Shown: in pieces, positions 1 through 64,000 of the stretch | Layout of the letters: each line of letters begins with the position of its first letter | Position numbering within the stretch: position 1 is the stretch's first letter | DNA from: Phorcus lineatus | Lineage: Eukaryota; Mollusca; Gastropoda; Trochida; Trochidae | Direction: 5' to 3' | Length of the DNA: 64,000 nt | Assembly: GCA_921293015.1 (NCBI GenBank) | Contig: OV121090.1 | Span: 248,001-312,000 of the forward strand | Notes under the pieces: generated by a model | The model's database searches: none | Told to the model about the DNA's origin: nothing | The model's input: the letters and a program-made list of their open reading frames with translations, nothing else | Position numbers and translations under genes: made by a program

Positions 1-1010
1 CCTGAGGGGTCGACTAAAGCATAGGAACACTTACCTGAGGGATATGGGAAAGCATAGGAAGATATACCTGGGGGTTCAGGGAAAGCTTAGGAAAAATTAC
101 CTGAGGGGGTTGGGAAAGCAAAAGAGGTCGTACCTGAAGGGCCAGGAAAACCATAGGAAGACATACCTACGAGTTCACAGAAAGCATAGGAAGCTGTACA
201 TGAAGGGGCGGTAAAAGACATAATATACTGAGGGGTTGGGGAAAGCATAGGAAGACGTACCTGAGGGGTTGGGGAAAGCATAGGAAGACGTACCTGAGGG
301 GTTGGGGAAAGCATAGGAAGACGTATCTGAGGGGTTGGGGAAAGCATAGGAAGACGTACCTGAGGGGTTGGGGAAAGCTTAGGAAGACGTACCTGAGGTG
401 TTGGGGAAAGCATAGGAAGACGTACCTGAGGGGTTGGGGAAAGCATAGGAAGACGTACCTGAGGGGTTGGGGAAAGCATAGGAAGACGTACCTGAGGGGT
501 TGGGGAAAGCATAGGAAGACGTACCTGAGGGGTTGGGGAAAGCATAGGAAGACGTACCTGAGGGGTTGGGGAAAGCATAGGAAGACGTACCTGAGGGGTT
601 GGGGAAAGCATAGGAAGACGTACCTGAGGGGTTGGGGAAAGCATAGGAAGACGTATCTGAGGGGTTGGGGAAAGCATAGGAAGACGTACCTGAGGGGTTG
701 GGGAAAGCATAGGAAGACGTACCTGAGGGGTTGGGGAAATCATAGGAAGACGTACGTGAGGGGTTGGGGAAAGCATAGGAAGACGTATCTGAGGGGTTGG
801 GGAAAGCATAGGAAGATGTACCTGAGGGGTTGGGGAAAACATAGGAAGTCGTACCTGAGGGGTTGGGGAAAGCATAAGAAGACGTACCTGAGGGGTTGGG
901 GAAAGCATAAGAAGAGGGAACCATAAAAGCATAGGAAGATGTACCTAAGGGGACCGTAAAATTATAGGAGGACGTACCTGAGGGGGCGGGGAAAGCATAA
1001 GAAGACGTAC
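1..1010. repeat. 33-bp minisatellite carrying the 5' splice site of DHX38 exon 18
   Basis: About 30 head-to-tail copies of a 33-bp unit run from the window edge to the exon 18 donor. They are most regular from 236 to 900. On the minus strand each unit contains CCCCTCAG|GTACGTC, the same junction found at the true exon end (1011/1010), followed by TTCCTATGCTTTCCCC. A few copies read CAG|ATACGT (for example near 325, 655 and 786), so the donor GT is lost there. Because 33 is divisible by 3 the minus strand stays open as a repeated SPTPQVRLPML peptide. Direct read-through from exon 18 meets TAG after about 21 codons. Confidence 0.95.
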
Positions 1011-15836
<14,826 letters not shown>

Positions 15837-19300: not shown

Positions 19301-22300
19301 CAAATGCAATCACATGAATGATACAAAGAAATGCTAAATCCTGATAGTACCATTTCATGTTATGACTCGGTTTTTCACTTATCTTACTATTAAACAGTAC
19401 AACAATTGAATTTAAACATTCAGAAATAATATTTTCCTATGTATGAATGTATTTTCAGTAGAAAATGTAAACCTCAAATGGTAATTGTAGTACACTAAAA
19501 AACAATTCATGTTTATCTTGCAGGAGGATTACAAAGCCTTACATTTCTAAATCTAAATGGAAACAACTTAGTAACATTTCCACCAGAAATATGCCAGTAA
19601 GTATGCCCATACTAAAAACCTTAAAATTCTCATGTTTCATTTATACCTCATGCTCCTATGCATGATAATATTAAAACAGTCAATTATTTGTATTGAGTAA
19701 CAACAAAGATGTTAGAAGTTGGCATTTTGAAATGTTTTGTGTATAATTTTTGCATAAAGATGTGTATGACTTTATTTAACTATTTACTGTTTATAATGGT
19801 AATTGTTATTTATCTGTAATGTTTCACATCAACATTGTGTTCAGATGTTGTGAATTTATGTGACAGCATAAACTGTTCTAAATAGTAGCACCGTAGCTAA
19901 AACCTACCAAGACAAGCAATTATTTTGCCAAAATTAGCAAATGCTTTTTCTAGAGCTCATTCAATATAAATACAATCTAATCATGCAATAAGTAGAAAAC
20001 TTGTGTTGTCTATGACATGTTTATATCATTTTGTGAGGTAAAAATCACTCAGAACTACGCATCTCAAGTTTCATTAGATGAGATGAAAATCCAAATGTAA
20101 AGTACAAAATCTCTAGAATGACTACATCTTTAAAGTATAATCATCATTATAACACCAGGTTGTCGAGTCTGCAGCACCTGAGTGTAGACAACAATCAGCT
20201 GACAGAGTTACCCATCGAATTCTGTGCACTTACCAAACTGGAGGAGCTTCACATGGCCGGCAACCAGCTCTCGTCTCTACCCCTCGAGTTTGGTTTCCTA
20301 ACCACCCTTGAGAAGTTATACTTACAGAAGAACAAGATAAGAGAATTACCTGAGGTAATAAGTAAAAAAAATATATTCTTTCATCAATGTGTAAATGAAC
20401 AAAGTATAAGAAGGATCTGAGGTTACTGATTATTTTATGTATATGATTTTAAATTCAAATTTCCTTTCAGAGCCTGAGTAAATGCTACAGATTGAGAGTG
20501 ATTGACATTGCTGCAAATGAGCTGAGAATCTTCCCAACAGAGGTGAGGGGGGAATAAATATGTGGAATTTGTTCTCTAAAATCGACTCTGAAAATAATGT
20601 TCATTCCCTGGGGACATTGAATAGGGCAAACTGACCGAGGTTCGGACACAACCCGAGGTCGCCCGAACTTTGGACACTTTTGACTAGTAGCTGACGCAAT
20701 AAAACGTGCAATGTCGGCAATATATTTGTTTTAAAATATGAATTTCCCGAATGTCAATTGGTTCATTTCATTAAATAGACAATTGATCGAAGGTAGTATA
20801 TCTAATCGACTTTTTGCTATAATGTACAAATAATAGATCCATGTAAGGAATTGGCAAAATATTTGTTTCGACGTAAATGTTGACTATCAGATTAGGAGGA
20901 AGATTACAGGAGATTATAGGAAGCGCCAAAACATTTAAAACTGTATCCATAAACAAAGATAAACAACCAAACAGTTATATTGTGCTGAACATTGGAACAT
21001 ATAAAGGGGATATTTAAGTAAATGTTGAAATATTGATAACATGTCAAAATGACCTTGCTTCGGACAGTTTTGACCATGGTTCGGACACTTTTTATATTTG
21101 ACTTATACGGACTTGTAGTGCTGTAATTCAACCAATAAAAGTTCTTGAAACATGCAATAACATACGACTAACATATTTCACTAAGTGATAAATTTTTAAA
21201 AGCTACCGTTTAGCGAGTACAGCGTTTTTGCATCAAATGCCTACGAAACTGATTGTGACGTCATAATTTTGTAACGACACATGTGGCAGTTTCGGGGAAA
21301 TTTAACATCGGCAAGCATGCTCTGTACAGATGACATATTAATTCATGTTTCCGAAAAACCTAGATATTATTGTACATGAACTACTCAAAGCGTATTTTGG
21401 AATGTATGAGATCATTTTGATAAATATTTTAAGCTAGGGGTGTATGCGAGAAGATCATGTGCAACTGTCCGAGGTTAGGTCAGAACTGTCTGAACCTCGG
21501 GCGATTTCATATTGGAAATAAAAACCGTTATTTTCAGATAATTTACGAACAATTCTGCATTTTAAGATAACAATCCAAAATAAATATTACGTTTTGATTA
21601 TTAGGTTTGGTCATATTTACATTATTCAATTATCTTTTATAATGCAGAGTTTCAAACATTTGAATCGATACACTGTCCGAACCTCGGTCAGTTTGCCCTA
21701 TACAATATGAAGAGTAATAATATTTGGACAAGAGAAAGCTTCACTTAAACACTCATTTTCATACAATTTATAACTGTTTCAATTTAAATAATTTAATCAG
21801 TCAGTGGTAGCCCATGAGGTACAAGGCTCAGTTAGACCCCTTAGTGTAGTTCAGCAACAATAGGTTTGGTTTACTGATCGAGTGATGGGTGACTTTATTG
21901 TTCATTAGACGGAGAGTTTTTAATGTTGATTCCCTCACTGAGACAAGACTTGTGGTGTCACCGTGGGTAGTGACTTTATTCAAAATATGTCCTGTTTCAC
22001 CCAGCAGTAAAATGGATACCTGTTGTATGTTGTATTGGAGGTGACCACCATTGAAAGAATATGTGTCAGATTATGGCATAGAGTTTAGAATGCTATTATT
22101 AACAAGTAGAGATTTAGTGAAATACAAGAACATTGTATGAAATAAACCCATCTTACCGCCAGTTGTCTGGTAACTTTGGCTTTTCTGAAACTTTGCCTTT
22201 TAATTCACTAAAATAACCCCTTTTCGGCGACTTTTTTAATAATATTATTTCATACACAATATAAGAAGCATCCATCATTTTGATTGATCAAATATGAAAT

Positions 22301-34162: not shown

Positions 34163-34206
<44 letters not shown>

Positions 34207-40200: not shown

Positions 40201-43200
40201 ATTGTGAAAATTATTTCCTTAATCCTTGTTCTTATCCATGACATGTGTCTTTAACAGACATGTGCCTGTCACATGGGTGAATTTAGGAAAAGATGCACTA
40301 ATCAGTGGATTAATAATTCTCAGACACAAATGAGAAAAGAAACATCTGACAAAGGAAAAGGTAAAGAAGATGCATGTGACATGCCATGCATGTGTGGCAG
40401 GGTGAGATACAAGAATTACCACTGGTTATGTCCAGAGGTTTACGTCTTAGGCTGAATTGGAAGAGTATCTGAATCTCATCCACAGGTAGAGGGTTTGAAT
40501 GGAGATCTAACAATCACTCCTTTTCAACAAGCATAACAGCAATGAAGGTTGAACAAATTATAAGTTTGCAATTTGAAACATTTCAGGTAGATTCCAATCA
40601 GGTTAAAGGTGCTTGTACAGTCAAGAAACAAATTTTGTTTGAAAGATATAGTCAAAGTCACAAGTTCACTAATGTAGTGAGGAAAGTTTTACAAAAGTGT
40701 TAATCGATTGCATGGGTAAGTAAAGTTAATTTTCATGTAAATACTCTAATTAGTTTCTGAAGTTACATTTTGTTTCTTCTCTTGATAAATGTCCGGGTTG
40801 AAATTTTTTTTACTTTTTCAAAGACCAACCTTTATGAATAGTTAATTTGTACAAAATGATTCAAGCTTGTCAAACTTGTCATGTTTATATTTTAACATGA
40901 GATAACCTTAAAAGTTACTAGCAGTATGTAAATCATGCAAGCATCATTTACTAGCCATTGGTCAGCCAACTAGAGCTAACTTCAAACCCTGAACAGACAA
41001 TCATTAGAGTTGAAACAAGGTTTTGTTAATAGCAATGATTTCATTCAAAAAAAACAGTTTAATTAAACTGTAAGCTAATCAAAAGCAAATTACCACAGCA
41101 AATCAACTTTTACCTTCTTCCCATCAACCTGGATAATACACAGAGTAAGAAAAGTCAGATAGAGCTTGAGGGTGAGAAATGAAGAGAAATTATCATACGT
41201 CTCAGAATTGAATGTTTTGAGGACAAAAGTTTGATCTATAAATTATTAATTTTTTAAAAGTGAACCTCTTTATAACCACAATTGGAAAATATGATTAAAT
41301 GACTGATGGACTTGATGGGTTGATCAGGGTGGTTTTGATAAGGATGTTTACAACCTTGATGAGGAAGTATAACAATAACACAAAGATGCCCCGAGACTAC
41401 TGTGCATTTTAAATTGTGCAGCTAGAGAAACAGTCAGGGATATTTCAACAATGATACATGGGAGGCAATAATGCAGATGATGTTGATGCAGTTAGAAAAT
41501 GATGCAAAGAAACTTGATGCAGTTCAACAATATCATGTTGAATAATGCTCTGAGACAATAATGTATTGAGAAAAAGTTAAAGAAAACAATACATGTTGAT
41601 ACTGTCAGAAAATGATGCAATGAGACACTGAAGCCATGATGCAATGAGACAATGATACAATGAGACAATGAAGCCATGATGCAATGAAGCCATGATGCAA
41701 TAAGAAAATGATTCAATTAGACAATGATTCAATGAGACAATGATGCAATGAAGCCATGATGAAATGAGACAATGATCCAATAAGGCATAATGCAATAAGA
41801 AAATGATTCAATTAGACAATGATTCAATGAGGCCATGATGCAATGAGACACTGAAGCCATTATTCAATGAGGCCATGATGCAATGAGACACTGAAGCCAT
41901 GATTCAATGAAGCCATGGTGCAATGAGACAATGATCCAATGAAGCCATGATGCAATGAGACAATGATACAATGAAGCCATGATGCAATGATGCAATGAAG
42001 CCATGATGCAACAAGACAATGATCCAATAAGGCATAATGCAATGAAGCCATGATGCAACAAGACAATGATCCAATAAGGCATAATGCAATGAAGCCATGA
42101 TGCAATGAGACAATGATTCAATGAGACAATGAAGCCATGATGCAATGAAGCCATGATGCAATAAGAAAATGATTCAATTAGACAATGATTCAATGAGACA
42201 ATGATGCAATGAAGCCATGATGAAATGAGACAATGATCCAATAAGGCATAATGCAATAAGAAAATGATGCAATGAGACACTGAAGCCATGATTCAATGAA
42301 GCCATGATGCAATGAGACAATGATCCAATGAAGCCATGATGCAATGAGACAATGATACAATGAAGCCATGATGCAATGATGCAATGATGCAATGAAGCCA
42401 TGATGCAACAAGACAATGATCCAATAAGGCATAATGCAATGAAGCCATGATGCAATGAGACAATGATCCAATAAGGCATAATCCAATAAGAAAATGATGC
42501 AATGAGACACTGAAGCCATGATTCAATGAGGCCATGATGCAATGAGACACTGAAGCCATGATTCAATGAAGCCATGATGCAATGAGACAATGATCCAATG
42601 AAGCCATGATGCAATGAGACAATGATACAATGAAGCCATGATGCAATGATGCAATGAGACAATGAAGCCATGATGCAATGAGACAATGATACAATGAAGC
42701 CATGATGCAATGATGCAATGATGCAATGAGACAATGATGCAACAAGACAATGATCCAATAAGGCATAATGCAATGAAGCCATGATGCAATGAGACAATGA
42801 TCCAATAAGGCATAATCCAATAAGAAAATGATGCAATGAGACACTGAAGCCATGATTCAATGAGGCCATGATGCAATGAGACACTGAAGCCATGATTCAA
42901 TGAAGCCATGATGCAATGAGACAATGATACAATGAAGCCATGATGCAATGATGCAATGATGCAATGAAGCCATGATGCAACAAGACAATGATCCAATAAG
43001 GCATAATGCAATGAAGCCATGATGCAATGAGACAATGATGCAACAAGACAATGATCCAATAAGGCATAATGCAATGAGACAATGATTCAATGAGACAATG
43101 AAGCCACGATGCAATGAAGCCATGATGCAATAAGAAAATGATTCAATGAGACAATGATCCAATAAGGCATAATGCAATAAGAAAATGATGCAATGAGACA

Positions 43201-46200
43201 CTGAAGCCATGATTCAATGAGGCCATGATGCAATGAGACACTGAAGCCATGATTCAATGAGGCCATGATGCAATGAGACAATGATCCAATGAAGCCATGA
43301 TGCAATGAGACAATGATGCAATGAAGCCATGACACTGTGAGACAGTGATGCAGTGAGGACTAGCAAATTTAAGCTGTCAGCTTTTAACTAAATTTGCTGT
43401 TGTTGGATAACAATAAATCCCGGAAATTTTACAAATGCAACTATTATCTTCTAATTAAAGATACTACAAGAAGACAACTAAGAAAATGTCAACTGACCAT
43501 GGATTCCTTGGTGAGTTGCACATCTCGACTGGTGACACTGAGGAAGTCCGTCACACCAAGGGTGAGGAAGAAGTCGTGCCACAGCTGTACGTCACGCGGC
43601 GTGGGGGCTTGGTTCAGGTACACGGCATCCAGCAGGATCCAGTCATGCCCTGCAGATGGGATGTTGTGAGGAAATTAATGCTGTTCAGCAATTACAAATG
43701 CTTTTTCATGCAGTATTCATGAGGGAAGATTACAGAAAACATTGATATCAAATAATTTGTATTACCTATTTGGTGTAAGATAAGGGATGCATAGGAACAA
43801 TTTAAACTCAGGAGAAAGTCATATGGGTACACTTCTTATCATTAGCTCTATACATTGGTCACACTGTCATCCTTAATCATACTCATCACACAAAGGGCTA
43901 ACAACACATTGTCAACTTGGTTAGTCTCGTTGATGAACCTATTTAGCAAATGCTCAAACTTGAGTCAGAAATACACATTATTATGTAAGCTTATTCTTCC
44001 GGCGATCCAATTGGTCGAGAAGCGGTCATGTGTCAGTCGACAGAAAAGCATATTGACTTCACTTCGAATCATAATAAAACAATTATGGACTGGTTAATTC
44101 GGTCAATAGCTGTTTTTATAGACCTTCGTCATCTGTCAATATTGCTTTCCTCGGGTCTATAAAACCAGGTATTGACTTCATCACCAGTCTATAATTGTAT
44201 ATTATATCTTAATGGACCAGGAATGCTTCATGAAAGAGCCGAACACATCACTAACAGTATGGAAATGTGACTAACCTAGATTCAATTCACATAAAACATG
44301 ATTCTTAAATGCATCAGGAATTATCAGTGAAACATAAAGCACATCTTTAACAGTGTCTCAGAATCGTGACTAACCAGGAAGATGACGCTGAAGATCAATC
44401 TTGTTGCCATAAGCTGTCGTGAAGTGAACCGCAACATGGCTTGGTTTCTGAACTCCATGGTTGGTCATCACAACAGCGAGAGACTTGAGTTCGGCCATGT
44501 TGATGAGCGAGGGTTGTCTCTCCGCCTGGGTCTTAATGAACACCATGTAGCTGATCAGGATCTCTCGGGGCTTGCTCTGGGAAACAAATTTGATTCCTTT
44601 CTTTCAAGTTCTTCATGAACAAGAGCAACACACTCCTTAGGTAGAGACTGCTTATGATGTTGAGGTTTATCAAAGTATGAAGAGGCACTCCCTACAGAAC
44701 ACTCAACTTCTATAATTCCATTGACTATGTAACAACTCGGCCATGCTTCTTGTTTCATCATATTATCTTAATTGATGCATTTTCTCCAGTGAATATGCTT
44801 GCAATTAAGAAAACATGAATGTGCTAAAAAGTTATTGTTAAATGGCCTTTTGATCACGTATATATCTCAATTAAAGCACACTTTTTCTTTTTTAAAGATT
44901 TAGTCATGAAAGACTTATCTCCCTTTTGATTTCAACTGCTGAGTATTGACAACACCAAGTCAGTAATATAAAGCAGCAAATGCTTAACAAAGCATACAAA
45001 ATCACTTAATTACTTGATCTTACTTAACTTAATCACTTAAACGTACAAATTTCAAAATAAGAAGCTTGCATCAAGATAAGTTCATCAATGACAGCTGTCT
45101 GATAACGGCTTGCTAAGGCCTGAATGCATGTTGATTTTGTCAGCGTCAATTTTAGTATATAGTGCCTGCAATGTTTTTGTAAGGGTAAACTTTCCAAACA
45201 AAGCATATGAAACAAGTAAAGAAGTGAGCACAGCTCACATACCCCCGCTTCAAACTATAGTCTGGCTTTCTTTGTTGGTCTAACCCTCAAAAAGCTCACT
45301 TAGGGATCATGGTTGATAATTGTATGAAGTTTGGTGAAGCTAGCATTTATAGTTTAGGAGATATGCTCCGGACAAAGGACTTGGTCATAGAGTCGCTGTT
45401 ATAGTCATGTTTCCATGGAAACCACAAAAAATAAAAATCTTTTGGTGGTCTAACCCTCAAAAGGCACATCTAGGGATCATGGTTGATAAGTGTATGAATT
45501 TTTGTGAAGCTAGCATTTATAGTTTAGGAGATATGCTCCGGACAAAGGACTTGGTCATAGAGTCGCTGTTTTAGTCATGTTTCCATAGAAACCGCAAAAA
45601 AATAAAATTCTTTTGGTGGTCTAACCCTCAAAAGGCACATATAGGGATCATGGTTGATAAGTGTATGAAGTTTGGTGAAGCTAGCATGTATAGTTTAGGA
45701 GATATGCTCCAGACAAAGGACTTGGTCATAGAGTCGCTGTTTTAGTCATGTTTCCATGGAAACTGCAAAAAATAAAAATCTTTTGGTGGTCTAACCCTCA
45801 AAAGGCACATCTAGGCATTATGGTTGATAATTGTATGAATTTTTGTGAAGCTAGCATATATAGTTTAGGAGATATGCTCCGGACAAAGGACTTGGTCATA
45901 GAGTCGCTGTTTTAGTCATGTTTCCATGGAAACCGCAAAAAATAATTTTTTTTTGTTGGTCTAACCCTCAAAAGGCACATCTATGGATCATGGTTGATAA
46001 GTGTATGAAGTTTGGTGAAGCCAGCATGTATAGTTTAGGAGATATGCTCCGGACAAAGGACTTGGTCATAGAGTCGCTGTTTTAGTCATGTTTCCATGGA
46101 AACCGCAAAAAATAAAAATCTTTTGTTGGTCTAACCCTCAAAAGGCACATCTAGGGATCATGGTTGATAAGTGTATGAATTTTTGTGAAGCTAGCATTTA

Positions 46201-52200: not shown

Positions 52201-55200
52201 TTCATAGAATTACTTCAAAATATCCTAGGCAGGCTAATGACATTTGTAACATTTACCTACTTTCCTTTGTAATATTCTCATTATGATATACTTGAGTACA
52301 AGCCTTGCCAACAGGTGCTTGTGTATGAGTTCAAATCTATACAAATTAGGTAAACAAAATTGAAAGAATTTGCTTATCACTATAATACTTGCTTTTAATG
52401 TGCCTCTGGACTGAAACACGTCTTAACAAAGTTGTCTAGTAACAAAAGTAAAATAACCTACCTTCTTCAGAAAGCAAACTCTCGGCAGTCATGTTAGCTT
52501 CTTGCTCCTCCTCCTCTTCCTCCCCCTCCTCCTCTCTCGGAGCCTCTCCTTCTCCTTCCCCCTCCTCCTTCTCTTCCTTGGCCTTTTCTGCCGGAGTTAT
52601 CTGCTCCTCGTCTGACAAGGGGTCAAGGTCATCCGAATCCTCTGATTCAGACTCGGATTCTGATTCCTCCTCACTGTCCGAGTCTTGCTGTGATGGTCGA
52701 CAAAGTTCATGATAGTGATAAAACATTCTCTCCAACAGGGGTAGATCTGTCATAAAACTCTATGCGAACCTCTGTTCTAATACAAGCATTTCTCAGTCTA
52801 GAAATGTAGAAGCATGATTGGTTGCAATCAACTAGTTGTGCAATCAGCGACTTTCATAAGTGATAATTTGAGAAGCTTCAGTTATTTCTGTATACTTTGG
52901 GTGACACTTTACCTTTGAATATTTTATTTGCAGGCCACAGTTGCCTTCTTTAGCATCATTATATAAGCATCATGACCATAAATAGATTACTTATATATTG
53001 CAAGGAAATTCATGTTGCAGTATTTTGACAGAAGGGGAACCTAGGAAAATAGCTCTAATTACAACTGAAGTTCATATAGATATTTATGACAGAGAGAGAG
53101 TGGTAATAAACAGGTAAATGAGATATATTGTGAAGTGTAGATATTACAAAATATCTACATAATTTTTATTTGATATCATAGTGTCACATAAGCCTGATTT
53201 TCATCTTGATTTACGATGGTTTTTATCTCAAATTATAACCATGCACACTGAACCAATACCAGACAGTATTCAAGATTTACAAGGGCACAACATTTTTACC
53301 TCATTTGAAATCCATCTTCAAAAAGGATAAAAGCGTTAAGTATCAAAGGTCAATCCAAGACTGATAAAAGAAAGATTGAGAGTAAATCCCTCACCACAAT
53401 CTCCTCCCCCTGTTGCCGGAGTTCCTTCACCTCCGCCTGGGAATAGATTTCGGTCACACAACCCGGAGCAGGCTGACACTTCCCCACCAGGCTACCTTTA
53501 AGGATTCATGGGTACATCAAGAATTGATAACATTTCCCTAGAGATCAAATGCACAAGAAAACAGAGACAATCAACTTGTCACTTAATCTAGTCACTTTTG
53601 CTTACGAGTCGACCATATCAATGTCATTTCATAATGCTGTCAAGCAAACAAATTTTACTTCAAAACACACAAGTGTTTGCCACTAACTAGGCAAAATCCC
53701 CCGCCTAAGCTTTATTATATATTGCGTTTATAATATATTACAAATTTTCAAAGTGTAATGGTGACCTTGACCTTATTTTCAATGTCTCTGAGTTATTGAA
53801 AATGAGGTCCAGGTCATCAATGTCGACTGGCATCTGAGTCTTCCTCCATTGAAGGCTGTCACCATATATGAACACTCTAGGTGTTAAGCTTTACAAGATA
53901 TCGTGTTAACAATGTATTACAAGGTTAGGACAGTGTCATGGTGACCTTCAAAATAAGGTCAGGGTCACCAAAGTTCACTGGTGCCTGAGTCATCCACCGT
54001 TGTAGGCTGTCGTCAAATATGAAAACTCTAGGTGCTAAGCTTTACGAGATACCGCTTTAACAATGTATTACACAGTGGTCAAAGTGTCGTGGTGACCTAG
54101 AAAATGAGGTCAAGGTCACCAATGTCGACTGGCGTCTGAGTCTTCCTCCATTGAAGGCTGTCACCAAATATGAACAACACAGGTGCTAAGCTTCATGAGT
54201 TATCATATTAACAAAAATAGAGCCATGGGCTCTGTAGCTCATCAGACTTTTGATAGATATAGGTGTTTGGGTTTAGACCATTGGGTCATGGGCAGTGTAG
54301 GAAAGGTAGCCTGTCCCAACGTCCGAGTTATTCACAATAAAATAAAGAAGGACCATTGCCCATTTGGGGTCAAGGGGTCACCGAACCTACAATTCAGAAT
54401 CCCCATTGTCCAAGGAGTCTACACACAACTATTAAGCTATCAAGACCTTTTGGAACTGGAGAAGAAGATGAAAGTAGGATTTTAAGGTTTTGACCCCTGT
54501 GACCCCATTTGGGGTCAAGTGGTCACCAAACCTACAATTTAGAATCCCCAGTGTCCAAGGAGTCTACACACACCTTTTCAGCTCTCTAGACCTTTGGAAC
54601 TGGAGAAGAAGATGAAAATAGGTTTTTCAGGTTTTGACCCCTGTGACCCCATTTGGGGTCAAGTGGTCACCAAACCTATAATTTAGAATCCCCGTTGGCC
54701 AAGGAGTCTACACACACCTTTTCAGCTCTCTAGACCTTTTGGAACTGGAGAAGAAGATGAAAATAGGTTTTTCAGGTTTTGACCCCTGTGACCCCATTTG
54801 GGGTCATTGGGTCACCAAACCTACAATTTAGAATCTCCAGTGCCCAAGGAGTCTACACACAACTATTCAGCTCTCTGGACCTTTTGGAACTGGAGAAGAA
54901 GATTAAAATAGATTTTTAAGGTTTTGACCCTTGTGACCCCATTTGGGGTCATGGGGTCACGAAATCTACAATCTAGAATCCTCATTTGCCAAGGAGTATG
55001 CACATAAAATTTCAGCTCTCTAGAGTCATTGGTTCTGGAGAAGAAGTCGAAAAAGTAAAAAGTTTACAGATGGACGGACGGAAGCCGGACGCCTTGCCAT
55101 GCCATAAGCCCATCGGGTCTTTCAGACCTGATGAGCTAAAAATCTGGATGTACGGAGAGATGCCGCAGAATTCAAAGTCCAACAGATCAGACAGACAGGT

Positions 55201-58200
55201 ACAAATAAAGACATGGAATACTTTTAAAAGAAGTTAACTAAATTGAAAACTTAAAGAGGCATTTTAGCAGCTGGTTACATAAAAACAGAACAAGATATAT
55301 AGAAAGCCAACTTATTTATCATTTATGTTTGATTGTTGTAGATTTTGGAGTGAACAAAATGTCGGTATCCACAACAAAATGTCACATTCATGCAATTAAG
55401 AAGTTGACTATCCACAGAAGGGTGTCTCTAAACTGAGGTCCCACCTGTCCACTCTGGGATGCCGAGCTGACAGCCGAGAGTCTCTAGCTGTTGTAGGTAC
55501 CGCACGTCACCGGTCTGTTTACTGGACGTGAGCAGCAGAGACTTGGACTTGGTTGCCCCGACGACCTGACCCAGCGGCTCAAGAAGGATCTGGTTGGAGG
55601 AGATTATAAACAGGTGCTTTCAGTGATTTTACGGGAGTTTAATATGACTTTCATAAGTTCCATATAACCATTTGTGTTGATTAGACAGATAAATCTTCCC
55701 ATCCCTAAATGTCTAATATTTGACTATTTATATTGTCTTATCATAATTGACCTATACATTAAAGAGGCTGAAATAACGTACCATGTTAATATCTATACTA
55801 CTGAATTCACTTGTTGAAGAATACCTACCAAATAAACTTGTATACAAGTACAATCATTACTTATCTGGGTGTATACAAGTACAAATACAATCATTACTCA
55901 TATGGGTGTATACAAGTACAAGTACAATCATTACTCATCTGGGTGTATACATGTACAAATACAATCATTACTCATCTGGGTGTATACAAGTACAAATACA
56001 ATCATTACTCATCTGGGTGTATGCATGTACAAATACAATCATTACTCATCTGGGTGTATACATGTACAAATACAATCATTACTCATCTGGGTGTATACAA
56101 GTACAAATACAATCATTACTCTTCTCTTGGTGTATACAGACCTGGTTGGCGAGGGCAACACAGATACGCAGAGGAAGCTTGACGAGACATTCCAGGACGA
56201 ACAGGACGGCCGGGTCAGACATCACGACATCAGGGGGTGCTCCTGTAGACATTACCAATGTCACATTACTTTTACTAATAGAAATGATAATAATATTCTC
56301 ATTTATTACCCTTCATTTCACTTTATGTCTATTCACTATCTATTGAAGGGAAATCTACAATCTATTTAAACCATGTACTTTTTCATGACATCCACTGCTA
56401 GACAAATATATACATGTGAAATGTACAAGTCTAAAGACAAGTCAGGACATCATAACATTTATTGATGTGTCATTATCTTTTTCTAGTCCTGTTTTACCTT
56501 TTCTCATGAAAATTGAAATCAATGATCCCATTTATGTTCCGTACGTGTTCATTTTATCATTCTTAATTGAACCTATTTGTCTTCTTACAAGACAAGCCCA
56601 CTGACCGGGTGTCTGGCTGGAGGCGTGCATGGTGAAGAGAGCGGTTTTCATCAGGTTGGCTAACAGAGCAGTCGGTGTATTCTCCAGACCCTTATTCATG
56701 ATCACCATGGAAACAAGATGGCCGCACGCTAGTCCAACATCCATGGCTGCCAAAGCTTGCTGAAATATCTCTGGAGATGTTTGACTCACAAGTCGTACAA
56801 GTTTTCCTGGACATGTTTCCATAACAACAATATCAGTCGTCACTTTCTTGGTTCCACCTGCAAATATTACATTGAAGGTATTTGCTCAAAGCTTTCCATT
56901 AACAACAAATCCAAAGACAGCTGAAATTTCCATCTGAATATAAATAATAGACATGACAGCAACTTTGAACAGAAATTCTTTCAATTTTTGCTAGAATCAC
57001 AAGTTTCAAACTCACACTACCAAACAGACTGCCATACCGTTACATATAGTCAAAGTTAAATGAAGAAATGAATAAATTAAGGAATAAATGAACTTTCAAT
57101 AAAAGTAAGCTGAAGGCAAAAGGACCGTGCACAATGTTCACCTTCTATGTTAAAAGTGTAGACACCGCCATATTTCAACAAGAACTCCTTTAGTTTGCCA
57201 AACTGAGGCTCAAAGACCATAGACCAATGACTCCACTCGCTCAGATCCTCCAGTAGGGGGCAGTTTTGCAGACAGACAAGGGCCTGGTCACGTGACTGAC
57301 CTCCCATAATTCCAACCTTTCCCTCGCGAACATGTCTGTAGAGAAGACAGAAGTTGACAATACTGAATAGACAGTACAACTGGACATTTGAAGCAGTTTC
57401 AAGTTATTTCTTGGTGACCTTTGTGAACACAAAGCCTGATTTGTCTTCTCATCATTTTAGCAGCCAATGGATCGAAGAAGAACATTTTATGTTAACAGTG
57501 CATAGGATAGATGTCCAATCATTGAACATGTATGAATTACCATCAACGTTCAAACATGGAAATGGAGGAACATGGCAAAACTGAATGTGTTTCTTTTTTA
57601 TTTCAGCTTATATTTCGAAAGAAAGACACAAATGTTGCAACTCAATGAATTTTACAAACTGACAATCTTTGGTATAGGCGAGGACGTGTATAGACCAGGA
57701 TTAGAAGCGGCAGTGGTAAGTCATTAGCAATGAGCGGCGCAGATGGCTAGATGTGTAATTAATTCCATCTTTTATCGGCGCCCACCTGTTGGCATCAGGC
57801 ACATATGTACCCGCTCTTCGAAGGAACTTCCTTATTGACATAAGGGTTTTCATGAGGTCTTTAATGCGTGTTTATCGTTCAAAACACATGTTCAAGCATA
57901 TGTCTGCCATCAAAAAGTAATATGTATGCTTATGTTAATTTCATTGCGCAATTAAGCCAAATCACATGGGTTTTCATTGTTAGAGATATAGAGATGAACT
58001 TTCAAAAAGATCATTACTGTCCAATATGTCAGAGTTTTTGAATTGGGACGATGTTTATTTGCCTGAATCATTACATGAATAGACTGAATATGAGGTAGAT
58101 GTAGGTTCCGAATCGTTATTCGAGGGAAGTGTTCGTGAGGAAACAAACCCAAACGTTCCAAGGCTGAATGTACCAGAAATCCGTTGCCCTGTATGCCAGA

Positions 58201-61200
58201 AAACCTACTCATCCGCGTCAGATAGGTTTCATTACATAATGTTTACTTGTAAATAAAGAAATCAAAAGAGAAAATTAATCATCAAATTAACAAATGTCAG
58301 TTTGATGTTATGACTTCATAGTTTGCAAATCCTAAATAGTGAGCAATTTCATTTGTTAATCGGGAACGAAGAGTTTTGTTGTTTTTCGGCATGAGTAATT
58401 ATAGCTATTTTAGAAGTAAACTCTGCATGATTGAAATTATGTAGACAAAATCAAAATATCCAACATCCAAAAATACACATTTCATTTCTCAGATATATTC
58501 TGTACACAGAGAGTTTTGGGTAATCCTTTTTACATAATTGGTTTGTCATGAATATGTCAAGGAATTATGATAACATAACAAGAATAAATACACAAATCCA
58601 CAAATATCACATATCACTTATCATTAATCCTTATTTCACTTCCAACATAACAAGAGTCACACATAATTATTTCAGTTTCAGAATATCAGTGTTACACAAA
58701 TTTCACAATCAACAGAGCAGTCATATAATATATGGGACGGACAGGCATATGAAAGAAACAATGTGAATTTTTAAATAATAAATTAAAATATACAAATATA
58801 TGATATTTTTATTTCAAATCCATTAAATCACTACTACTCGCTCATTTTTAAATACAGTTCAACTGTATTTGCTAAGAAATATCATTGTCTAGGAATAGGT
58901 TCAAATAAACAAATTATAGTCCCAATTTAAATGCGTTTTATATCAAAATGTGTTTCAAACACGACTCTAAAAATAGTGTGATTGCATTGACTAGACATAA
59001 CAGTATGCATTACTATAATTAATATTGCTAAAAAAACGTTACCAAGCGAGTTATTGGGTCAAAATGTAAGGCTAGTTTTGTAAATGTTTCGCTGTAAAAC
59101 CCTAAATCCTAGCTGAAATAACCAATTTTCAATCACACGTCTCTTTGATAAACTTGATTTATTTTCAACACTAAAGGCGTTGATGCAACCCTTTGTTATA
59201 AATCTTTCATCTGACCTTTGTAACTAAGAAGTTTCACATAGAGAATAGCCGCAAAAGGGCGCAACAAAAACATACTTTTCACTGTTTTCAACTCATGAAA
59301 CTCGCGCTCATGTTCGCGACTGGAGGGCGTAGCAAAAGAGTTTGTAACAACTAATTCTTACTATTAAACCCCAAAACAACAACATATTATATTTTTTTAT
59401 TGTTCACATGGAAATATAGCTTAAATATATAACTTGACATATTATAGAAACCCGTCAATTTGCCATAGAATGTTCACCGATTGTCACGAAAAAGTGATCA
59501 GTGGTTTCCCAGCATGCCAAGCCAGTTTACACTGAAGGCCCCATGCAGCATAGAAAAATATGAGGCACGCATCGCTAATGACTTTCCACTGTCGCTTCCT
59601 ATCCTGGCCTATATAAATCCTTGGTATAGGCATAGAGACAAAGTTTCTCTGTGCCATAATGTATTTTTTTCATGTTTTAAAAACAATTTCGAAACAATTT
59701 CTTCAAAAGGCAAACAATAATCTAAAAAATGATTTATCAATATGCTAACTAAAAGACTGATGTGAAGATGTCAAATTCCATGTGACTCATCAAGTTATTC
59801 CCTGACATCTTTTGAAACAAAGCTTTTGATTGGTTAGTTGATCAGCTCACCCAGTGTTTCCAGCAACAGCTGCCTCATATACAATGATTTGTTCAGTCGA
59901 TTTGTGTTTGCCAGGTCTCTCGGCAGCCAATTTGAGACGTGAAATGTTTCCGTATCCGAGTTGCTTCACATCCGTCACCCGGAACTGATCACGAAGGGCA
60001 CTCTCAATAGCTTCAGCCTAGTGAGGGGTAAATGTGATGAATTAAATTTCTTGTAATGTGGCCATTTACATGGATTTACAAATCATTTTTTTTGGAAAGG
60101 TGATGTTTCTACAAAAATGCTCAGAGGTTTTTAAGTAAGTGATATAAGAGAGATGGAGAAAATAAATATACGTACCAGTAGAAATTCTTAAAATGCATTT
60201 AGAAGTTGGTAGGGTCCATAAGACAAATCAATGGATGGCAACTATCTTATTTTATTTTCTTACAATATTTTGGGGTTATATCTTGGCAATAAATAAGTAT
60301 ACAATAGATGATACTTACTCAATCATGCTATCTACATCAACCTAATGATTCAAAACACTGCTTCCATACACTGACCTGCTTAAGCCCACTTCAGAGCACT
60401 GACCTTTTTAAGCCCTACCTCCAAGCACTGACCTGTTTAACTCCACTTCAAAGCACTGACCTGTTTAACTCCACTTCAAAGCACTGACCTGTTTAACTCC
60501 ACTTCAAAGCACGGTCCTGTTTAAGCCCCCCTCTCAATAATGACAGCTAAGCCCCACCTCCCAGCACTAACCTGTTTCAGTCTGGCTGAAAGCATTGACC
60601 TGTTTATTAGCCCCGCCTCCAAGCACTGACCTGTTTACGCCTGCCCTTCCAACACTAATTTTACCTGTTAAAGCCCCCCTCACAATAATGACTTGATCAA
60701 GCCCAGCATTCCATTACTGACCTGTTTAAGGCCAAACTCCCAGCACTGACCTGTTTAAGCCCTGCCTCCACGCACTGACCTGTTTAAGCCCAACCTCCAA
60801 GCACTGACCTGTTTAAGCCCTGCCTCCAAGCACTGACCTGTTTAAGCCCTGCCTCCGTGCACTGACCTGTTTAAGCCCTGCCTCCAAGCACTGACCTGTT
60901 TAAGCCCCACCGCCAAGCACTAATCTGTTTAAGCCCTACATCCTTGCACTGACCTGTTTAAGCCCTGCCTCCAAGCACTGACCTGTTTAAGCCCAACCTC
61001 CAAGCACTGACCTGTTTAAGCCCTGCCTCCAAGCACTGACCTGTTTAAGCCCTGCCTCCAAGCACTGACCTGTTTAAGTCCTGCCTCCAAGCACTGACCT
61101 GTTTAAGCCCCACCGCCAAGCACTAATCTGTTTAAGCCCTACATCCTTGCACTGACCTGTTTAAGCCCTGCCTCCAAGCACTGACCTGTTTAAGCCCAAC

Positions 61201-64000
61201 CTCCAAGCACTGACCTGTTTAAGCCCTGCCTCCAAGCACTGACCTGTTTAAGCCCTGCCTCCAAGCACTGACCTGTTTAAGCCCTGCCTCCAAGCACTGA
61301 CCTGTTTAAGCCCTGCCTCCAAGCACTGACCTGTTTAAGTCCTGCCTCCAAGCACTGACCTGTTTAAGCCCTGCCTCCAAGCACTGACCTGTTTAAGCCA
61401 AGTCTCCAAGCACTGACCTGTTTAAGCCCTGCCTCCAAGCACTGACCTGTTTAAGCCCTGCCTCCCAGCATTGACAAATCATCATCAAGACGTCCGTCAT
61501 CTGTGGTCGGAACACTGATTCTGTCTCTCGACCACCAGTGGAACCACTGTTCATCGTGACTCCACACTCGTCCAGCAGCTGAGGTCAAGGAGAAAAGTAA
61601 AGACACCATTATCCAACAGTGTAACAAAACTTAAATATTACACAAACTTGTCCATAGTCTATTTATTTACAACATTGAAATATTGTCTTATTCGAAAATA
61701 TTCAACTTACAGTTTTGACGGCAGGGTCTGTGGTGATGTAGTGAAGAAAACGTCCAAAGCCCATGAGGGGGAAGTTAGTGTACCCAAAGTCTTCAAGCAG
61801 CTTCTCCTCAATACGGTCGAGATTGTGAAGTGTGAGGGCCCCATGAGCCAGACAGCGCTCTATATAGGTCTTCAGCTTCTCCATTACACTTCCTGTACAC
61901 AGAAATAACTACATAACACATCCTGTACACAGAAATAACTACATATCACTTCCTGTACACAGAAATAACTACATAACACATCCTGTACAAAAAAATAACT
62001 ACATTTCACTTCCTGTACACAGAGATAACTATATAACACATCCTGTACACAGAAATAACTACATTTCACTTCCTGTACACAGAGATAACTACATAACACA
62101 TCCTGTACACAGAAATAACTACATAACACATCCTGTACAAAAAAATAACTACATAACACATCCTTGACACAGAAATAACTACATAACACATCCTTGACAC
62201 AGAAATAACTACATTTCACTTCCTGTACACAGAAATAACTACATAACACATCCTTGACACAGAAATAACTACATTTCACTTCCTGTACACAGAAATAACT
62301 ACATAACACATCCTTGACACAGGAATAACTACATAACACATCCTTGACACAGAAATAACTACATTTCACTTCCTGTACACAGAAAACAACTACTAATCAC
62401 TTCTTGTACACAGGAATATACTCAACACTTCCTGTACACAAGAAAAAACTTCATATTACTTCCTGGAAATAGACAACAACTGCATAACGCTTTATAATGG
62501 AACATTTACATGAACTCCGGTGATGGAGACAATTCTTCAAATGTGGAGATTATCAAGCCACTAGTAACACATGGACACAAGGAACCATGTGCCACCACAT
62601 TTCAATTCAAAAAGTCTCACTTTAAGATACATTGGTATATGCTTACCTTTTGATGGGGGTTGTCTTGCGGCAGAGTTGTCTTCTCTTGTGGAAGTCTCCT
62701 GACTGGGAGGTGAAGGAGGAGCAAGGAGTTCCATGGCTGACTCCTCAAGGGTCGTGTTTCCAACACAAATGGCCAAATGAAAGAGCAGTGCAGCAATCTG
62801 ATCACCCTGAATGGTCAACAGGAAGCTGTTGATTGACCCCTCCATCTGTTTATGACGTTTCATCTGAGCTCTCGTGTCCGGGGCATCGATCGACATTAGC
62901 AGCTGAAACTTCTGGAATATTTCCATGATGGCAACCTCAGGTTTGAGTTGAAGATAATGACCTCTGACCTCAGATTCTCCATCCTCACCTTGCTGTAGGA
63001 CGACTGCGCGGAACTTCTTGAACGCTACGTGTAAATCCTTCTTGAACTCCTCTTTGAAACCTTCTGTGATTCCTCTCCGAGTAGCGGCGGCATCTCGCTG
63101 CGACTTTTTCAACATCTGAATAAAAGTTATTTCAAACAGAAGCAAAAATGAAAGTCTTCTTACAAAAATACACATTTCTTGATAATGTATTTCAGTTTGT
63201 GTTAGATTTAACATTATATCTATTAATTTATCATGTATTAAAAGGCGCATGTTTCCATACATACATACATACATACACTCCAGTCCAACATTTAATCTCA
63301 CAAGTTCTACTGAGCTTGTTGATCAAAATTCTATTCATACATTCTAATTTTCTTAAATCAAAATGTTTAAACCATTCATCATATTGCAATGATAATTTCT
63401 TTATTATACAATGTTTAGGCCATATTTTAATTCCAATTCAAAAAAACTTGCAATTGCAATAGACAAATTTAGTTATCTACTGTATGATAAGACCAACCTG
63501 CACACTGAGTGGGAGACTGCGGATACGAAGTCCAAGCTGGTAGGCATTATCAAAGTTGTACACCTCCACCAAGTAGTTCATAAATGGCTCAAACTCAATC
63601 TTTTCTGCCCACTTGTTGTACTTTGAGAGGTAGTCGCGCAAATGTTCCAGCAGATCCATTGTTGTGATCTCCGGGATTTCCTCGTCACAAGGGAACTTGA
63701 ACATGTCGTACACCATGGGCAGTCTCTGGAGAGGACCGAGCTTCAGCGACTCAAAGTTGTCTGCCTTGTCCTTGGTGAACTCTCTCATGCATTCCGAGAG
63801 TTCGTAAAGCGTGCAGACAGATCTCGACTTGACAAAGGCCTGCACATACATGTTTACTTTGCAGAGGAGTCTGTTATGTTCATTGACGGAGGGAAGTTGA
63901 TCAACGTGCCGAATATTGATATCATACAGACCCCGTATATTGTAACGCTGACATAAGAGTTTCTCTATTCTTGGAATAGACACATGCTCGTTAGCATCAG
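31761..64000 (-). CDS. Protein NO VEIN-like giant protein: GHKL-type ATPase plus C-terminal NOV/DUF3883 domain (32 exons in view, 5' end outside window)
   Basis: Exons high to low: 64000-63498 (frame from 63998), 63115-62647, 61892-61711, 61578-61447, 60017-59851, 57335-57142, 56857-56606, 56242-56142, 55589-55445, 53495-53395, 52759-52462, 51881-51393, 51206-51053, 50679-50541, 50194-50063, 49360-49204, 48790-48678, 48460-48304, 47947-47708, 47432-47229, 46923-46742, 44576-44375, 43649-43498, 39366-38097, 37716-37460, 36730-36540, 36245-36088, 35581-35459, 35064-34789, 33768-33699, 32817-32615, 32260-31761. Phases chain to 2,636 codons plus TAA. A helical N-terminal part leads to an acidic linker, a sacsin/NOV-type HATPase domain (about residues 900-1240), a long helical middle, and a NOV domain at the end. 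The family is named after plant NO VEIN; animal members are uncharacterised. No signal peptide or membrane segment was seen. Confidence 0.9.
33100..33385 (-). mobile_element. tRNA-related SINE-like sequence
   Basis: Read on the minus strand it begins GGGCGGGGTAGCACAGTGG. TAGCACAGTGG fits the pol III A-box consensus, and about 15 bp on CATTCGAAATTCC resembles a B-box. The body (GCACACACATGGTGTGCTAA etc.) has no ORF. It lies in a NOV-like intron. The exact 3' end is not clear. Confidence 0.65.
34165..34202. repeat. (TA)n microsatellite
   Basis: About 19 uninterrupted TA dinucleotides in the NOV-like intron 32616-33698/33769-34788 region. No associated feature. Confidence 0.95.
34789..36245 (-). 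CDS. NO VEIN-like exons 27-29: proline/tryptophan-rich linker exons
   Basis: Exons 36245-36088, 35581-35459 and 35064-34789 encode a disordered linker with a repeated W-P-P theme: ELWEVPPPIIPEPVRPP, MKSWPPKSSDLGLDPEN and SKIWPPPKPPEYHKQ. The last two exons both begin and end in phase 1 (123 and 276 nt), so either can be skipped or duplicated without breaking the frame. Exon duplication is a reasonable inference. The following exons (33768-33699, 32817-32615) are Ser-rich and basic. Confidence 0.78.
37838..38060. mobile_element. Truncated copy of the tandem-core element family seen at 54214
   Basis: The segment starts AACCATTGGTTCTGTAGCTC and continues ATCAGAC, matching the left end of the 54214-55140 element (AGCCATGGGCTCTGTAGCTC). 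It also has GAGTCTACACACAAGA, matching GAGTCTACACACAACT in that element's core. Only about one core survives and no right end is visible. It borders NOV-like exon 24. Confidence 0.65.
38097..39366 (-). CDS. NO VEIN-like exon 24: single 1,270-bp exon of the middle region
   Basis: It encodes about 423 residues, from TGTPWEPLRDMWPASSTGYH to GAR. Stretches such as YVCEEFTALVTNNSQPGTLI, FHQHKVIFVPDTRLQDSNDQ, DVWWNDPSRLFHKYKGLIAD and KKDEWVGLDENPMVADNREL are typical of the NOV-family middle part. It is by far the largest exon in the window; the others are mostly 100-300 bp. The end (GTGRRGRQQRRGARG) is basic and low-complexity. Confidence 0.88.
39757..40085 (+). mobile_element. SINE-like element with a conserved central domain
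   Basis: The head GGGGCCCAATGGTGTAGTGA resembles a tRNA-derived A-box region. The middle contains CTGGGCAAGAAACTTCATCC and CACTCAGTCTACCCAGCTGT and then ACAAATGGGTACCTG, a block strongly reminiscent of the conserved core shared by many invertebrate SINEs. It ends in TTATTTTATAATTATTATCA followed by a TTA/TTG-type simple repeat, which fits a retroposed tail. The family name is not certain. Confidence 0.7.
41585..43360. repeat. Large higher-order minisatellite in a NO VEIN-like intron
   Basis: About 1.8 kb is built from short modules such as GAAGCCATGATGCAATGA, GACAATGATCCAATAAGGCA and GACAATGATTCAATGA, rearranged in blocks of several hundred bp that repeat as units (the block ending GACACTGAAGCCATGATTCA recurs). 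Many overlapping minus-strand ORFs (HCIMASLHHGF type) are artefacts of module lengths without stops. It lies about 120 bp from the donor of exon 43649-43498 but does not contain that junction. Confidence 0.93.
45225..46379. mobile_element. Pearl/Helitron-like non-autonomous element with 170-bp tandem cores
   Basis: Six copies of a 170-bp core begin TAACCCTCAAAA (45281, 45451, 45622, 45792, 45962, 46132). They share GGAGATATGCTCCGGACAAA and GGTCATAGAGTCGCTGTT. The last core runs into a GACGGACAGACA microsatellite (about 46226-46333). The right end has a hairpin, ACCCCCGC-ttacgctgtaa-GGCGGGGGT, and the left end also carries ATACCCCCGCTT. Tandem cores, a tetranucleotide tract and a 3' hairpin are the hallmarks of the bivalve pearl-type elements. 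No protein is encoded. Confidence 0.82.
48678..51881 (-). CDS. NO VEIN-like exons 12-17: histidine-kinase-like (GHKL) ATPase domain
   Basis: Exon 51881-51393 holds LYSKDTHFVLELVQNADDNS, whose ELVQNADD is the sacsin/NOV N-box that binds Mg-ATP, then VLNNENGFREKDIRALCDVG (G1 box). Across the intron KFGYIG|QKGIGFKSVFRVTD gives the glycine lid (G2). Later exons give GWTTRIYLPLKDEMSLQTRS, LLLFLHRLREITVENL, FAFLPLRSYGFRFIIQG and the conserved closing motif GDFDVPSSREDVDRDSPWNQ (48790-48678). All nucleotide-binding residues appear intact, so ATP binding is likely. The order matches plant NO VEIN and sacsin-type modules. Confidence 0.92.
49795..49920. repeat. Degenerate about 28-bp AT-rich tandem repeat
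   Basis: Four to five units of the form ATTTCATAAGGTATATATATTG in a NOV-like intron. No relation to a splice site was seen. Confidence 0.75.
52462..52759 (-). CDS. NO VEIN-like exon 11: acidic low-complexity linker
   Basis: It encodes LPLLERMFYHYHELCRPSQQ followed by long Ser/Glu/Asp runs (DSEEESESESESEDSDDLD, then EEKEEGEGEGEAPREEEGEE) before the ATPase domain. The acceptor is the least certain in the gene. The obvious TGACAG at about 52746 puts exon 10 out of phase. The CATAG at 52760 restores the frame and adds SFMT at the start, so 52759 was chosen. A missed micro-exon is the alternative. Confidence 0.7.
53690..54200. mobile_element. Tandem-core repeat element, about 150-bp unit, three copies
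   Basis: Three diverged copies of a 150-bp core are recognisable by GGCTGTCACCAAATATGAA, CTAGGTGCTAAGCTTTACGA and AATGTCGACTGGC (about 53818, 53969 and 54119). The left flank begins AAATCCCCCGCCTAAGCTTT. It lies directly next to the following tandem-core element, in the NOV-like intron 53496-55444. No ORF. Confidence 0.75.
54214..55140. mobile_element. Tandem-core element with inverted termini, about 145-bp unit, five copies
   Basis: Cores of about 145 bp start CATTTGGGGTCA at 54361, 54506, 54650, 54795 and 54940, each with GGAGTCTACACACA and GAACTGGAGAAGAAGATGAA. The left end GGGCTCTGTAGCTCATCAGA and the right end TTTCAGACCTGATGAGCTAA are partial inverted repeats. A short GGACGGACGG tract precedes the right end, as in the element at 45225. 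It is non-coding; the translated ORFs here are by-products. Confidence 0.82.
55445..64000 (-). CDS. NO VEIN-like exons 1-9 in view: helical N-terminal region
   Basis: About 715 residues with no motif I can name, but clean coding sequence and consistent phases. Conserved-looking stretches are IPRIEKLLCQRYNIRGLYD, FPCDEEIPEITTMDLLEHLR, MLKKSQRDAAATRRGITEGF, DRIEEKLLEDFGYTNFPLMG, KVGIMGGQSRDQALVCLQNC and ALAAMDVGLACGHLV. The region reads as a helical-repeat scaffold. Three of its junctions adjoin minisatellites: exon 3 acceptor, exon 4 donor, exon 8 donor. The true start lies beyond 64000. Confidence 0.85.
55850..56130. repeat. 37-bp minisatellite next to the NO VEIN-like exon 8 donor
   Basis: About seven copies of a 37-bp unit (CATCTGGGTGTATACAAGTA plus CAAATACAATCATTACT). 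The edge is about 10 bp from the exon 8 donor (56142/56141, minus CAG|GTCTGTATACACC). The intron bases GTATACACC are part of the unit, so the array starts inside the donor's downstream context but does not duplicate exon bases. Confidence 0.93.
57691..59611. mobile_element. 1.9-kb TA-flanked inverted-repeat element with a coding remnant
   Basis: Left TIR TAGACCAGGATTAGAAGCGG (57691) matches the right TIR read on the minus strand, TAGGCCAGGATAGGAAGCGA (from 59611). Similarity extends about 43 bp (CAGTGGTAAGTCATTAGC versus CAGTGGAAAGTCATTAGC). TA borders both ends. An alternative reading uses the direct repeat TTGGTATAGGC found at 57669 and 59622. It fills most of the 2.5-kb NOV-like intron between exons 5 and 6. 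Confidence 0.85.
58036..58254 (+). pseudogene. Coding remnant with a Cys/His motif inside the inverted-repeat element
   Basis: Plus-strand reading gives WDDVYLPESLHE, a stop, then TEYEVDVGSESLFEGSVREE and a segment ending RCPVCQKTYSSASDRFHYIM with FTCK before TAA. The spacing C-x2-C-x11-H-x4-C resembles a small zinc-binding motif. This may be a fragment of the protein once encoded by the element. No family could be assigned, and the internal stop argues against current function. Confidence 0.4.
60365..61446. repeat. 29-bp minisatellite carrying the 5' splice site of NO VEIN-like exon 4
   Basis: About 35 copies of a 29-bp unit. On the minus strand each reads TTGGAGGCAGGGCTTAAACAG|GTCAGTGC-type sequence. 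The exon itself ends TGGGAGGCAGGGCTTAAACAG-|GTCAGTGC (61447/61446). Nearly every copy keeps CAG|GTCAGT; two read CAG|ATTAGT. Copies become irregular toward 60365. The unit contains a complete AG|GT junction, so each copy is both donor-like and, given the upstream bases, weakly acceptor-like. Confidence 0.95.
61893..62400. repeat. 30-bp minisatellite carrying the 3' splice site of NO VEIN-like exon 3
   Basis: About 16 copies of a 30-bp unit. The minus strand of each contains TATTTCTGTGTACAG|GAAGTG or the variant GTCAAG|GATGTG, the same acceptor that precedes exon 61892-61711. In the reading phase required by the upstream exon, GGA TGT GTT ATG TAG appears in the common unit type, so use of an upstream copy would usually add a stop codon. 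A different minus-strand frame stays open (CSYFCVQDVL type peptide) and is an artefact. Confidence 0.94.

Follow-up and report, generated by a model that had tools for sequence, protein, structure and literature searches.

Minisatellites on exon-intron junctions in an animal genome: arrays of the mirage kind with a probable founding bias towards 5' splice sites

Results

Genes and exon model

The window, i.e. the whole stretch of 64,000 nucleotides analysed here, corresponds to bases 248001-312000 of a 49.6-Mb contig (C16) in an assembly of 958 Mb and 74 contigs, at least 18 of them large. It is situated some 250-310 kb from a contig end. For exon prediction we used a model of codons and splice sites that had been trained on window sequence; curated by hand, its output comprised 56 exons and 110 junctions. 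The training set of the exon finder was drawn from this same window (DHX38 plus four fragments of the NOV-like gene), so that exon calls in the window lack independence. Among the curated donors, 55439 does not read GT and is placed at 55444 by the exon finder. Gene content and a structure rich in introns led us to regard the host as an animal.

Three genes of clear identity were recognized. The first (1011-15836, minus strand) codes for a DHX38/PRP16-like helicase; of its 19 exons, as judged by protein alignment, 18 fall within the window and one in the neighbouring stretch L037. The protein spliced from these 19 exons matched PRP16 of entry 5yzg with E=0, and the alignment displayed no gap at any of the three donors that carry an array, so that these junctions are well supported. 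The second is a leucine-rich-repeat (LRR) gene (20159-27093, plus strand), for which a partial model of four curated exons is available together with a further predicted exon at 25016-25056; its Pfam LRR_4 match improved from 7.4e-13 with one exon to 8.6e-17 with the four exons joined. The third, a NO VEIN-like gene taken as one unit (31761-63839, minus strand), has 34 exons predicted by the codon and splice-site model, the last of which matches Pfam NOV_C at 8.6e-17. A sacsin match in this gene (0.0022) was below its cut-off. For junctions in the LRR and NO VEIN-like genes, support comes from the exon model, from Pfam matches to some of the exons and from reading phase, which was consistent across the neighbouring exons checked by hand. 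The first-pass annotation had assigned its arrays to three unrelated genes, and these identifications agree with it.

Arrays on splice junctions

Analysis of the window with TRF returned 30 rows. Seven arrays with units of 29-83 bp were located on junctions: six contained one and the seventh adjoined one (3 bp), and the junctions concerned were six donors and a single acceptor.

Three of them belong to DHX38 and are read on the minus strand. The first (1-1018) is composed of 31 units of 33 bp and runs about 60 bp beyond the window start. It covers donor 1010 of exon 1173-1011 (FMDPPPQ|), whose final 8 bases lie inside the array; the following exon (DNILNSMYQ) is in L037, its acceptor being 1.2 kb beyond the start of the window. 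The second (7681-7794, 3.8 copies of 30 bp) contains donor 7792 of exon 7939-7793 (FGLLRE|VV). The third (9186-9964, 15 units of 51 bp) covers donor 9936 of exon 10083-9937 (YAIRNE|LL), and its first unit holds 28 exon bases. This donor pairs with a predicted acceptor at 8803, outside the array.

The LRR gene contributes one array (22381-23717, plus strand), with 16 units of 83 bp that are 99% alike. It covers donor 22435 of an exon ending in ..HSVQEEEVLSLK|, and 54 exon bases fall within its first unit.

The remaining three are found in the NO VEIN-like gene, again on the minus strand. A 37-bp array (55843-56138, 7.9 copies) starts 3 bp inside donor 56141 of exon 56242-56142 (..ICVALANQ|ILLEPLGQ), and a 29-bp array (60358-61475, 38 units) covers donor 61446 of exon 61578-61447 (..CWEAGLKQ|AEAIES); both exons come from the exon model and gave no Pfam match. 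The former was also considered as an acceptor array of the plus strand, which was rejected since the minus-strand exon fits its neighbours in phase. The last array (61882-62488, 20 units of 30 bp) covers acceptor 61893 of exon 61892-61711 (..SVMEKLKTYIE..) and is the sole acceptor case counted in the window.

Five of these arrays had previously been described as including exon ends with their splice sites, and all five were recovered by TRF (donors 1010, 9936, 22435 and 61446, acceptor 61893). Three more had been placed within 15 bp of splice sites. This holds for 7681-7794, which actually contains its donor, and for 55843-56138, but not for an array of 52-bp units (12911-13312, minus strand, 7.7 copies) that precedes DHX38 exon 12890-12682. 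The latter ends 20 bp from acceptor 12891, the one with the best protein fit, and was not counted as a junction array; it would lie on a junction only if an alternative 'ctcag' acceptor at about 12915 were used.

Other repeats and elements were observed in the window. Two separate arrays of one 80-bp unit (4730-4931 and 5954-6294) lie 1 kb apart in the same DHX38 intron. Open frames in a DHX38 intron (10991-12318) putatively represent a decayed mariner-type transposase. A degenerate 16/40-bp array of 1.75 kb (41607-43358) occupies an intron of the NOV-like gene. At 53798-55053, arrays with units of 151 and 145 bp precede a GACGGACGG stretch, an arrangement suggestive of a mobile element that contains tandem units.

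Internal anatomy of the arrays

Units were aligned in five arrays. Core units were identical in the 33-bp array, the 29-bp array displayed repeated blocks, and the distal edges had diverged in both. The 83-bp array was uniform throughout.

The splice site had been reported to occur in every unit, a claim that the alignments contradict: 9 of the 15 units of array 9186-9964 lack the donor GT, which is also missing in at least 3 of the 31 units of the first array (1-1018). No sparing of the GT in inner units was detected in these alignments. Inner donors thus seem to be free of selection, and the exon-proximal donor is presumably the one used. In three of the seven junction arrays the period (83, 37 and 29 bp) is not divisible by three, and use of an inner site would consequently shift the frame; this would not be the case for the other four (33, 51, 30 and 30 bp).

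Donors at arrays were not weaker than other donors (on average 4.5 versus 4.3 consensus matches, P=0.59). Two details of donor sequence were recorded, both on small numbers. All three GTCTGT donors among the 54 curated GT donors carry arrays (7792, 22435 and 56141), and C is found at intron position +3 in 4 of 6 array donors versus 6 of 48 others (P=0.008).

In the gene models, the other splice site was outside the array in all seven array-bearing introns. The next acceptor lies beyond the array for each of the six donor arrays (e.g. in L037 for donor 1010, at 8803 for donor 9936), and the donor lies outside the acceptor array. In none of the seven modelled introns were both splice sites derived from duplicated units. 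The arrays therefore extend a longer intron at one of its ends instead of giving rise to an intron of their own. The first copy is entirely exonic in array 60358-61475, and wholly or almost wholly so in an array found elsewhere in the genome (L048, see below), so that the beginning of the intron is similar to the exon sequence located one unit upstream.

Excess over chance in the window

Junction placement was compared with a null model in which each array was shrunk to one unit and placed randomly outside purely exonic sequence; a match was scored when the unit contained a junction or adjoined one within 3 bp. The comparison is post hoc, the window having been noticed for its pattern, and rests on 13 or 14 arrays. 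Among arrays with a period of at least 20 bp and at least three copies, 7 of 13 were on junctions versus 1.80 expected (P=5e-4), or 2.17 expected when placement was restricted to gene space (P=1.7e-3). Taking degenerate array 41607 at the 40-bp period given by TRF instead of 16 resulted in 7 of 14 versus 1.90 (P=8e-4), and inclusion of all arrays outside coding sequence with a period of at least 15 bp gave 7 of 20 versus 2.61 (P=0.008).

The excess resided in donors, with 6 observed versus 0.89 expected (P=8e-5); no excess of acceptors was found in the window (1 versus 0.97 expected). This amounts to 4-fold overall and 6.7-fold at donors. The earlier proposal that junctions attract arrays beyond chance is thus upheld for the window, post hoc. 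It had also been proposed that selection tolerates arrays where they can be spliced away. This remains part of our preferred reading, but tolerance alone leaves the 4-fold excess unexplained, since purely exonic positions were already barred in the null model.

Arrays at other loci

Tiles of 10 kb were sampled from twelve contigs, always at the same coordinate (20 contigs were intended, 8 of which were too short). These twelve tiles had a GC content of 0.33-0.37 and contained 16 predicted exons and, under the criteria used for the window, 9 arrays. By these same criteria (period of at least 20 bp, at least three copies), array density was 13 in 64 kb in the window and 9 in 120 kb in the tiles. 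At a distance of up to 3 bp from a predicted junction, one of the 9 tile arrays was found, for about 0.13 expected by hand arithmetic; at up to 10 bp, the count was 2 of 9. Both are acceptor cases, and no array lay on a predicted donor among the 9 arrays of the 12 tiles. The closer one (L012), with an A+T-rich unit, adjoins a galectin exon (Pfam 4.8e-9), whose acceptor it covers or approaches to within 2 bp; for the other (L006), 8 bp separate the array end from a predicted exon's acceptor.

Twenty helicase loci were also considered as a sample of conserved exons. TRF gave five rows for these loci and L037 together, in L017, L027 and L035. The sample was dropped, many best matches being in long open frames taken for mobile elements.

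Genome-wide motif test

Motif arrays were defined as three copies of CAGGTAAGT spaced 20-50 bp, with the reversed motif as control. CAGGTAAGT gave 131 matches in the genome, distributed over 16 listed places and one unlisted match, which may represent an additional place or the edge of one already listed; single copies amounted to 8437. The reversed motif gave 24 matches at 6 places (7384 single copies). CAGGTGAGT gave 87 matches at 18 places (6204 single copies) and its reverse 4 matches (3588 single copies). Neither motif was significant alone: P=0.059 for CAGGTAAGT, or 0.086 with 16 places, and P=0.079 for CAGGTGAGT, or 0.23 if five 48-bp arrays are considered as one family. Jointly, 34 places (one shared) compared with at most 10 for the reversed motifs, with an odds ratio of 2.55 and P=0.009. 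We also reduced these counts ourselves. Merging the five 48-bp CAGGTGAGT places and two CAGGTAAGT places with the same unit left 29 places (P=0.03), and the strictest count, also without the unlisted match, was 28 versus 10 (P=0.048). These results provide moderate genome-wide support, about 2.5-fold per motif, for junction-seeded arrays.

Flanking sequences were fetched for 11 of the 16 listed CAGGTAAGT places, low-complexity and dispersed arrays being left out by choice (two of one dispersed 25-bp unit, one G-rich, one 14-bp and one 48-bp). Ten were informative, the eleventh (L043) being array throughout. In this non-random choice, 7 of the 10 arrays start at the apparent donor closing an open frame that itself has an acceptor-like beginning, and the array units measure 28-50 bp. 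Two of these exons were identified by Pfam. One codes for an Alg9-like mannosyltransferase (L040, 6e-22), with an array at an apparent donor and a stretch too short to judge the exon start; the other, also ending at an apparent donor, codes for a Ricin_B lectin (L048, 1.1e-8). Arrays at apparent donors with fair coding scores were seen in L039 and L044, and L038, L041 and L045 have likely donors, based on open frame and splice sites. Pfam searches of the L038, L041 and L044 exons gave no match. At the CAGGTAAGT arrays of L042, L046 and L047, no exon was found.

By a Markov estimate, about 0.28 of all CAGGTAAGT sites are real donors, and at this share 7 of 10 has a probability of 0.008. As the Markov model over-predicts the control motif, the share was scaled to 0.42-0.48, giving P of about 0.05-0.13. 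If the five places left out were all off exons, the score would be 7 of 15, which is not significant at the scaled share. Given this scaling and the non-random choice, the flanks show that exon-starting arrays recur elsewhere in the genome, not that they are in excess.

Junctions with arrays in homology-supported exons thus include the three DHX38 donors and those of the galectin (L012), Alg9-like mannosyltransferase (L040) and Ricin_B lectin (L048) exons.

Discussion

Origin of the junction arrays

Our preferred explanation, to which we assign a probability of roughly 0.7, is that these are minisatellites of the type called mirages in amphioxus, i.e. junction-spanning duplications that are tolerated and expanded, with a founding step probably biased to donors. 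A short tandem duplication would happen to span an exon-intron boundary, in this window mostly a 5' splice site. As judged from gene structure, the exon-proximal copy would keep the authentic exon end and splice site, allowing the same mRNA to be made, and all further copies would then fall into the intron. Freed of constraint, they would multiply and homogenise as an ordinary minisatellite. Such behaviour is apparent in near-identical core units, repeated blocks, diverged edges and mutated inner splice sites. Use of the exon-proximal splice site is predicted from the sequence, and in DHX38 the exon-proximal junctions would give the conserved protein.

Several other origins were weighed. The same anatomy would be expected if arrays arose uniformly in an intron-dense region and founders spanned junctions by chance, the window being an extreme draw without any bias. 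Such a coincidence is possible, if rather doubtful. Without bias, 1.8 matches are expected in the window and 2.17 in its gene space; the window is richer in arrays than the tiles and was chosen for a noticed pattern; the single-motif tests are borderline, and the exon share of the arrays is unremarkable on the less favourable estimates. Against it stand the probabilities obtained in the window (5e-4 to 1.7e-3, and 8e-5 for donors) and those of the combined motifs (0.009 to 0.048). Composition might also favour junctions indirectly, exon ends being G+C-richer than introns and units of this kind expanding more readily. We hold this to be unlikely: unit G+C is 0.45-0.55 in four of the seven window junction arrays, for a window mean of 0.374, but 0.33, 0.32 and 0.23 in the other three, and the L012 unit is A+T-rich. 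Moreover, acceptors also border exons, yet they are not in excess in the window.

Selection might instead retain donor arrays because repeated donors aid or regulate splicing. Every intact unit does supply a donor, and a human minisatellite with multiple splice donors is reportedly on record. Nevertheless, GT loss in two arrays (9 of 15 units in 9186-9964, at least 3 of 31 in 1-1018), together with the ordinary strength of array donors (P=0.59), makes this improbable. Less probable still is the suggestion, already made in the first-pass annotation, which sees the arrays as intermediate steps towards new introns by way of duplicated AG|GT proto-splice sites. AG|GT is indeed present in the units, array 60358-61475 has an exonic first copy with a donor context resembling the exon one unit upstream, and such a route has been proposed for amphioxus mirages (PMC3087553) and described in a potato gene (PMC4974935). 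It is the predicted partner splice sites, all outside the arrays, that speak against this link.

Returning to mirage-type duplication, the occurrence of arrays at donors beyond uniform placement indicates that founding duplications are probably biased to donors. A donor bias is likely, its window part being post hoc; junction seeding above chance probably extends, to a lesser degree, to the genome. The first-pass annotation had invoked a genome-wide process that amplifies junctions; such a process, favouring donors, is possible, with an excess outside the window of about 2.5-fold per motif. Among candidate causes of the bias, the one judged most likely is a hazard acting co-transcriptionally at 5' splice sites, such as polymerase pausing or R-loops. 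A bolder version, which we regard as tentative, makes the 5' splice site a hot spot of tandem duplication. Germ-line pausing, U1/R-loops or collision with replication would there found minisatellites several-fold more often than elsewhere, and at acceptors little or not at all, perhaps in amphioxus too; the arrays would testify to DNA damage suffered by donors during transcription.

If the donor excess holds genome-wide, 5' splice sites would be mutational hot spots for tandem duplication, perhaps in two distant animal lineages. Minisatellite birth would then be tied to transcription or splicing, and part of intron growth would be explained. In practice, gene predictors may face dozens of equivalent donors at one exon.

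Relationship to known systems

A search of the open-licence literature revealed no such arrays outside amphioxus except a human multiple-donor minisatellite, although others may exist. This human element, of the IFI6 type, is said to give multiple splice donors, several of which are reportedly used. It likewise carries donors in its units; in the present arrays, use of the exon-proximal donor alone is suggested by gene structure.

In a potato RdRp gene, a short tandem duplication at or near an exon-intron boundary yields a new intron (PMC4974935). The potato duplication thus creates an intron, whereas the arrays described here lengthen one end of an intron that has its other splice site elsewhere.

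The closest relationship is with the mirages of amphioxus, which are minisatellite-like tandem duplications of exon-intron boundaries. They are described in Adh3, globins BflGb6 and BflGb9, PGBD5 and troponin C, with units of 10-160 bp and at 5' or 3' splice sites (PMC3087553, PMC3902484). They are said to leave splicing undisturbed and to vary in length, somatically at Adh3; RT-PCR data are reported. The window arrays agree with this description in spanning authentic boundaries with units within that size range and at both types of site, acceptors being represented by one window array, next to six at donors, and by L012. Both sets of arrays have boundary-spanning units in which AG/GT is kept in many but not all copies, and the concerted evolution within amphioxus clusters, which leaves out the boundary units, has its counterpart in the 33-bp and 29-bp arrays. 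They differ in their basis, amphioxus mirages being backed by RT-PCR and length variation and the present arrays being known from the sequence of one assembly. What is added to the amphioxus work is a placement null, a genome-wide motif control and the donor-side excess in the window. A little-known amphioxus oddity is hereby extended to another genome, with first numbers: the window arrays belong to the mirage kind known from amphioxus, and the donor bias is the new, testable part.
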